In this document: in pieces, positions 43,894-44,571 of the stretch
How positions within the stretch are numbered: position 1 is the first letter of the stretch
How the letters are laid out: each line of letters begins with the position of its first letter
The notes under the pieces: generated by a model
The model's input: the letters and a program-made list of their open reading frames with translations, nothing else
Databases searched by the model: none
What the model was told of the DNA's origin: nothing
DNA from: Microscillaceae bacterium
GTDB lineage: Bacteria; Bacteroidota; Bacteroidia; Cytophagales; Microscillaceae
Direction: 5' to 3'
Assembly (NCBI GenBank): GCA_011390205.1
Contig: JAABSX010000011.1
Location: forward strand, 1 to 64,000
Length of the DNA stretch: 64,000 bases
Program-made: the position numbers and the translations under genes

Positions 43894-43932
43894 CATAAAA
43901 AATGGGCTGCCAGTCTAACCTTCCGACAGCCC
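43894..43932 (-). terminator. Terminator after the Asp-anticodon tRNA-like gene
   Basis: On the minus strand a 6-bp GC-rich stem (43927-43932 with 43904-43909) is followed by a run of six T. It lies just after the tRNA fold at 43935-44007 and suggests that the tRNA region is, or was, a transcription unit. Confidence 0.6.
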
Positions 43933-43934
43933 GA

Positions 43935-44007
43935 TACTAACAACAGGAGTTGAACCTGCGTCCCTCTGCGTGACGGGCAGAAGCTCTACCAACTGAGCTA
44001 TGTTAGT
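43935..44007 (-). tRNA. tRNA-Asp(GTC)-like, non-canonical (C33)
   Basis: The minus strand folds into a full cloverleaf: 7-bp acceptor (ACTAACA with TGTTAGT), D stem GCTC/GAGC, anticodon stem TCTGC/GCAGA, variable GGGAC, T stem with loop TTCAACT, and discriminator A. The anticodon loop is CCGTCAC, giving anticodon GTC (Asp), but base 33 is C where U is nearly universal. A73 and an A1-U72 pair are also unlike usual tRNA-Asp. CCA is not encoded. It may be a diverged, non-standard or decaying tRNA. Confidence 0.6.
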
Positions 44008-44066
44008 GGTGCTGCCAATGCAGCGATTGATTTTTCAGGGCATCTACCCCCACTTTTTACATTGTC

Positions 44067-44156
44067 GCCTTTGCTCTGCCACTGAGCTATGCCCCGATAA
44101 ATTAGAATGAAAGTACATAAAGTCGGGGCACATGGAATCGAACCACGGCACCAGGC
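44067..44156 (-). other. tRNA halves in reversed (permuted) order
   Basis: Reading the minus strand, first comes a 3' half (44156-44123): GCCTG, GTGC, T arm CGTGG-TTCGATT-CCATG and acceptor strand TGCCCCG plus A. After a 26-base spacer comes a 5' half (44096-44067): acceptor strand CGGGGCA, TA, D arm GCTC-AGTGGCA-GAGC, A, AAGGC. The acceptor strands pair over all 7 bp and GCCT pairs with AGGC, so together they make an almost complete tRNA, but in permuted order. No anticodon loop can be read. Alternatives are two tandem, partly deleted copies of one tRNA. Both are inference. Confidence 0.5.
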
Positions 44157-44571
44157 AATTGGTAGTTTGTAGATTATCAAGAAAAACCGTTAAGTCTTAC
44201 ACTACGGAACGAAACACTGAGGCTTATCTCTGGAAAGTTTTGTTACATCAAATCCCAGAAGTTTATTTGACAATAAATCAAAAGCTGAGGCTATTTCCGT
44301 GAGTACAAAATTAAGTAAAAATATCATATAATTTTAGTCGAGTCATCACTCAAAATATATAAAGTAGATTACATTATCCATTTACTTGTGTTTGTGATAA
44401 AAAATAAGTATCTTCATAATGGATTTAGAGAAGAAGTAACAGTATAATTTTGTTTTAGAAAAGTTAAGCATTGATTTTATCAAAACAAATTTACCCATTC
44501 AAATCGTTTTGTGTATTGTGTTTTTCTATGTCACTTATCACCACCGTTTGAATATTAAGAGAAAGACAATT
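44157..44571. other. Non-coding spacer upstream of the tRNA-like region and the protease gene
   Basis: No gene is recognised. The stretch 44157-44330 is unusual in base content compared with the AT-rich part after 44330 and could hold the leader of the minus-strand tRNA-like unit. TAATTTTG at 44445-44452 matches the -7 element for the plus-strand protease gene, without a clear TTG. Confidence 0.4.

Follow-up and report, generated by a model that had tools for sequence, protein, structure and literature searches.

What kind of RNA is encoded where the 3' half of a transfer RNA (tRNA) is written upstream of its 5' half? Such an arrangement is found on the minus strand, at positions 44156-44067, of the stretch of DNA analysed here (the window: 64,000 nucleotides (nt), positions 1 to 64,000 of contig JAABSX010000011.1 of the Microscillaceae bacterium assembly GCA_011390205.1). 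It had been described from the letters alone as a possible permuted tRNA, new to bacteria, with two decayed tandem tRNA copies as the plain alternative (below, the original prediction). Comparison with related genomes indicates that the permuted halves are one domain of a previously unrecognised, free-standing non-coding RNA gene of Cytophagales, about 400 nt long, whose transcript would also carry a codon-like triplet and a complete linear tRNA, hereafter tRNA2. The same comparison shows that triplet and tRNA2 anticodon change together and stay Watson-Crick complements of each other.

The permuted tRNA-like domain

The letters and positions of the two halves, 44156-44123 and 44096-44067 on the minus strand, agree with the original prediction to the base, and so do the 26-nt linker, the discriminator A, the AGGC-GCCT pairing and the acceptor stem, in which seven of seven pairs form. 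All features given below lie on the same strand. Read from its 5' end, the domain opens with the 3' strand of the anticodon stem, GCCT (44153-44156), and the T arm, CGTGG-TTCGATT-CCATG (44131-44147), and continues into the acceptor 3' strand TGCCCCG (44130-44124) and the discriminator (44123). A linker whose first base is C (44097-44122) joins this 3' half to the 5' half, where the acceptor 5' strand CGGGGCA (44090-44096) is followed by TA and the D arm (GCTCAGTGGCAGAGC, 44073-44089, the D arm itself occupying 44087-44073) and by the anticodon-stem 5' strand AGGC (44067-44070); the two pairing strands of this half are borne out by the alignment of relatives.

The permuted order is real in the sense that it is kept, and covaries, in relatives. 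In a set of 9 sequences the four helices are paired in 100% of 180 cells and 11 of the 20 pairs have changed on both sides. In 25 distinct sequences 98.4% of 500 pair cells are intact, compared with 78% for shuffled partners and no more than 51% for slid ones, and two-sided changes are seen in 14 of the 20 pairs, as plain counts on MAFFT alignments uncorrected for phylogeny. All seven acceptor pairs are among those that change on both sides in the larger set; the T arm is 100% paired with four of its five pairs covarying, and the anticodon stem is paired in 93% of cells with two-sided changes in three of four pairs. TA and the D arm are near-invariant across all relatives (the D arm, TAGCTCAGTGGnAGAGC, almost so), and the linker ranges from about 18 to 209 nt. 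The base directly 3' of the discriminator is C in 39 of 39 copies, a hint that processing of the permuted acceptor may resemble that of a tRNA end.

The triplet and the second tRNA

Immediately past the permuted domain lies a specifier-like triplet, GAC (44064-44066), recognised by comparison of the elements and complementary to the anticodon GTC (43972-43974) of tRNA2. The latter (44007-43935) is a complete tRNA, called tRNA-Asp(GTC) by ARAGORN and scoring 66 bits with the Rfam tRNA model, with a weak A1-U72 end; ARAGORN and Rfam report ordinary tRNAs only in the window, and this is one of them.

The triplet, located 0-3 nt past the four-pair anticodon stem, is the exact reverse complement of the tRNA2 anticodon in 30 of 31 elements. 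If the match is sought within a 14-base window, it is present in all of the 31 elements whose anticodon was called cleanly as three bases, where shuffling gives 8.5 on average; for the non-redundant elements the count is 24 of 24, with a shuffled mean of 6.0, and none of 20,000 shuffles was as good. Four elements examined only afterwards fit the rule as well, with GGG/CCC, ATC/GAT twice and CTG/CAG, the anticodon of one of them (L139) having been read by eye. Twelve triplets occur: GAC, GGC, CTC, CTG, AGG, TTG, ATG, GTC, TTC, AGC, ATC and, in a later copy, GGG. In a sub-group whose anticodon loop has eight bases the pair is ambiguous and can be read as TGG/CCA or GGA/TCC.

Every triplet-anticodon pair is Watson-Crick, and the triplet has C or G at its third position in each of 24 elements. 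No triplet ends in U, even though the sequences are AT-rich and G34 would decode U-ending codons too, an argument for physical pairing rather than decoding. In 19 of 24 elements an A directly follows the triplet.

In several elements body and anticodon of tRNA2 disagree on the amino acid: class II bodies occur with GAA or GAT anticodons, and class I bodies with those of Leu or Ser. C follows the tRNA2 discriminator in 22 of 39 copies, which is not consistent, and the host genome already has a normal tRNA-Asp(GTC). In most tRNA2 the first acceptor pair is weak (A-U, U-A, G-U, U-U or C-A, not G-C), which is reminiscent of initiator tRNA.

The RNA gene as a whole

The original prediction had stopped at the two halves and overlooked their continuation, with the triplet, a full tRNA and a terminator downstream and a structured leader reaching back to about 44300. 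The parts follow one another as promoter-like box, leader helix P1, permuted domain, triplet, extended arm, complete tRNA2 and terminator. In the window the RNA would span about 44300-43897 and would be flanked by two genes of the opposite strand. The box, TAATTTTG (44306-44313), is of the Bacteroidetes TAnnTTTG type by consensus match only, and many relatives have similar boxes, judged by eye, a short way 5' of the leader helix; whatever is said here of promoter, transcription, processing and partner of the RNA we infer from sequence.

P1 is formed by ACGGAA (44295-44300) and TTCCGT (44204-44209), and both strands are identified from relatives and from the minimum-free-energy fold. It covaries across relatives, 13 distinct versions giving 77 of 78 paired cells, against a mean of 43.9 on shuffling. 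YTTAG/GTAAG motifs repeat around P1 in all leaders, after its 5' strand and both before and after its 3' strand. A second helix, P2, forms the extended arm: GGTTTTTC (44181-44188) in the leader pairs with GAAAAATC (44029-44036), and a possible inner part, ATCTAC (44169-44174) with GTAGAT (44042-44047), was read from the sequence of the window alone. The best P2 helices of 26 elements sum to 486, versus 383 +/- 14.5 with shuffled partners, and none of 5000 shuffles was as good; partners of P1 and P2 were taken as the best score per sequence, a choice for which the shuffles correct in P2 and partly in P1. Since P2 pairs the leader just 5' of the permuted domain with the segment 3' of the triplet, the triplet would be placed in a side loop, with the anticodon stem on one side and P2 on the other.

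Wherever a copy has enough sequence, tRNA2 begins 44-89 nt past the triplet and is followed by a terminator hairpin whose loop is of the AAGGTTAGA type. In the window this hairpin, GGGCTGTCGG-AAGGTTAGA-CTGGCAGCCC (43904-43932), with its conserved AGGYTAG-type loop, was read in the sequence and is also present in the minimum-free-energy fold; a T run, likewise read in the sequence, occupies 43897-43902. No conserved neighbouring gene was found at these loci, save for synteny between close relatives. Because flanking genes differ and each copy has its own terminator, the RNA appears to be a free-standing gene.

Distribution

A search with a 231-base query brought up relatives that have the same arrangement. 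With a covariance model, and counting later copies, the element is present in 13 of the 15 genomes of the window's family, only G007 and G010 being without it, and several genomes are draft assemblies, in which the absence of the element or of the Ro gene discussed below is not certain in each. Two genomes of this family (G004 and G011) have copies with long linkers. The element occurs also in three more families of the order (f2, f22 and f4), and the named records that carry it are Microscilla, Bernardetia, Flexibacter, Microscillaceae assemblies and one labelled Aureispira. In the last of these (L079, L081) the upstream neighbour gene resembles that of a Cytophagales metagenome-assembled genome, and the label or the binning may be wrong.

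True copies score at least 75 bits with the model and tandem identical tRNAs, which also match it and were screened out by their intact flanking tRNAs, at most 69 bits. No true copy outside the window's own genome was found among 395 genomes drawn from the class and 395 drawn from the phylum; the weak matches at class level are tandem tRNAs. A phage origin was tried by a search of viral contigs, which gave no match to the element.

The genome of the window holds a second copy (L040, contig C37:25647-25741 with the tRNA that follows), whose tRNA2 is of class II (GAT). In Bernardetia-like genomes (L059, L055, L056, L057, L060, L012) the element occurs as two or three tandem copies, spaced by about 500 nt and differing in their triplet/tRNA pairs, and the eight-base tRNA2 anticodon loops belong to one group of these copies. 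Conservation in most of a bacterial family suggests that the RNA is probably needed by the cell.

Possible roles of the RNA

The reading that we prefer, tentatively and at a little less than an even chance, is that the RNA acts in trans and that its tRNA2 docks back on the triplet in cis, in the manner of a T-box, with the permuted domain alongside. As the RNA is made, tRNA2 would fold back and lay its anticodon onto the triplet as a tRNA does on a T-box specifier, and the docked tRNA2 beside the permuted domain would yield a particle showing two tRNA-shaped bodies. Once docked, tRNA2 would have a structural role rather than that of a decoding tRNA with a set amino acid identity. Docking is preferred over ordinary decoding because U-ending triplets are lacking, because body and anticodon of tRNA2 disagree and because the permuted domain has no conserved charging identity.

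The T-box specifier makes three Watson-Crick pairs, has a purine just 3' of it and lies in a side bulge (PMC7583486). The element resembles the specifier of T-box stem I in having its triplet in the loop of an extended arm, in the three Watson-Crick pairs to the anticodon and in the A 3' of the triplet. It differs in that the tRNA is part of the same transcript, no regulated gene lies downstream and the permuted domain takes the place of the apical loops of stem I. No Rfam match to the T-box family was obtained in the window up to E 10, and the element has its own terminator and varied neighbours.

Whether the element amounts to a new class of RNA, a single molecule with two side-by-side tRNAs, one permuted and one linear, held by its own codon-anticodon duplex, we consider evenly balanced. 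If so, codon-anticodon pairing would be used as an internal structural contact, and the codon would be free to drift provided that its tRNA follows. Such an RNA would be a natural mimic of the ribosomal tRNA pair or a transfer-messenger RNA (tmRNA)-like molecule that brings its own decoding tRNA, and it would join three ideas that have been separate, namely tRNA mimicry as in Y RNAs, permuted tmRNA and T-box recognition. An earlier description may exist, and neither Rfam nor the open-access literature yielded an RNA in which a codon-like triplet is encoded along with a coevolving tRNA that reads it; nor is this RNA described in the open-access papers found on permuted or split tRNA of Bacteroidetes.

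Several observations weigh against docking in cis. Three base pairs are weak by themselves, and tRNA2 is canonical enough that RNase P might free it, which would end the docking. The single-sequence fold of the window RNA is not unusually stable (z -1.35) and recovers the cloverleaf only partly, and the tRNA2 of the window has C33. Two copies break the rule of matching: in the second copy of the window's genome (L040) TTC stands in place of the expected ATC, and the second Bernardetia-like copy of L055 shows no match. Finally, an in-frame stop is found two codons after the triplet (codon 3) in 14 of 24 elements, compared with 1 and 0 in the other frames.

Such a stop is what a translated mini-ORF would show, and it is one of the points in favour of a tmRNA-like role, which we regard as unlikely and keep beside docking in cis. 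The linker would be removed by RNase P and tRNA 3' processing, the permuted domain would act on stalled ribosomes as a two-piece tRNA-like domain, and the triplet would be the resume codon of a tiny tag (NNN NNN stop) read by the RNA's own tRNA. Permuted tmRNA is known from bacteria (PMC3978253), and the element shares with the permuted two-piece form (RF04321) the gene order of acceptor piece, excisable spacer and coding piece, with the 3' acceptor piece upstream of the 5' piece, and, in many copies, what may be a short open frame; the invariant C after the discriminator is what genuine tRNA 3' ends have. The similarity to the Rfam tmRNA_permuted model is, however, weak (18.7 bits in the window, with a cut-off of 47), and the element has a full D stem, a second tRNA, no long tag and a variable acceptor without conserved aminoacylation identity (G3:U70, the alanine identity pair, in just 14 of 39 rows). 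The stop is less of a proof of translation than it seems, because T at +6 (21 of 24) and A at +8 (20 of 24) are conserved around a freer middle base (A or G in 14), so that the signal may be only a structural T-N-A motif; in the elements of the window, L010, L017, L040 and L061 the early in-frame stop is absent. The invariably C/G-ending triplets and the spacing of 0-3 nt between stem and triplet also argue against a resume codon. The original prediction was right that the element is not tmRNA in the ordinary sense, and a normal tmRNA is encoded elsewhere in the genome. A second SmpB, or loss of the ordinary tmRNA, was sought in element-bearing genomes and neither was found: genomes with and without the element alike have one SmpB and a normal tmRNA.

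We think it rather improbable that the RNA is a carrier transcript from which tRNA2 is cut out and used, the permuted domain and the triplet controlling its folding, processing or release as a chaperone or brake. The triplet would then mask the anticodon until release, and tRNA2, which always accompanies the element, is a good cloverleaf in the window. A tRNA meant for use fits poorly, however, with the disagreement of body and anticodon in several elements, with the eight-base anticodon loops of the Bernardetia-like group, with the inconsistent C after the discriminator and with the tRNA-Asp(GTC) that the host already possesses.

A relative of the YrlA Y RNAs, with the permuted domain as effector module and a leader that binds a Ro-like or other ring protein, is still less probable. 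YrlA (RF02553) has the same order of T arm, acceptor and D arm, as comparison with the Rfam model line shows, and its RNA ends likewise exit on the anticodon side, so that the novelty claimed by the original prediction for a bacterial permuted tRNA-like element was overstated. The permuted order alone thus has bacterial precedent, and what appears to be new is the triplet with its co-transcribed complementary tRNA. Similarity to YrlA is weak, with 18.5 bits in the window and 28.9 bits in the second copy (L040), the latter match lacking the basal stem, and a cut-off of 69. True Y RNA-like arrays exist in the same genomes, but ten element-bearing genomes have no TROVE/Ro match, and the Ro-bearing G007 and G010 lack the element. 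Y RNAs, moreover, need Ro/Rsr and a Y stem, and have neither a second tRNA nor a codon-like triplet.

It is very improbable that the locus is a true permuted tRNA gene of the kind found in red algae, whose transcript would be made circular and cut again to give a linear tRNA. Genes for permuted tRNA proper have been reported in algae and one archaeon (PMC3978253; PMC10085705), and those of algae and Thermofilum also have the 3' half upstream of the 5' half and a covarying acceptor; the linker of the element would be excisable by RNase P and 3' processing. Those genes mature to ordinary tRNA by splicing, whereas the halves of the element yield no anticodon: no join gives a consistent loop that has both U33 and a purine at position 37, the best reaching 7 of 27. 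In addition, the triplet is the complement of a separate tRNA's anticodon, the arm runs past the break into P2 and the genome's tRNA set shows no obvious need. The permuted order of the original prediction has therefore stood, as a genuine, conserved and covarying feature, and the tRNA gene has not.

Its plain alternative, two tandem tRNA genes that decayed with loss of their outer halves, has practically no chance left: tandem identical tRNAs do match the covariance model weakly, but with scores clearly apart from those of true copies, and the compensatory changes conserved across many genera in the 25 distinct sequences rule it out, pairing and conservation not having been lost and no intact linear tRNA pair standing at any such locus.

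Y RNA-like arrays

In the window's genome, contig C73 carries, next to a TROVE/Ro gene, a YrlA-like array whose tRNA-like domains are permuted (L018, about 18.5-19.4 kb; C73:16929-17669), with Rfam YrlA scores of 40.0 and 36.7 bits, both under the curated cut-off. A reading of the C73 arrays as tRNAs split by small introns is rejected, since these genes, adjacent to the one for Ro, are Y RNA-like. The last member of the array (L018:499-557, minus strand) has a tRNA-like body with the loop TTGGTAA, and its 5' acceptor strand is seemingly replaced by a Y-RNA motif. A similar Y RNA-like array with Ro is present in L114. L119 and L047 (G001, contig C202) contain linear tRNA bodies that have a TTACTTCT motif and whose anticodon arm bears inserts; these are possibly divergent Y-like RNAs.
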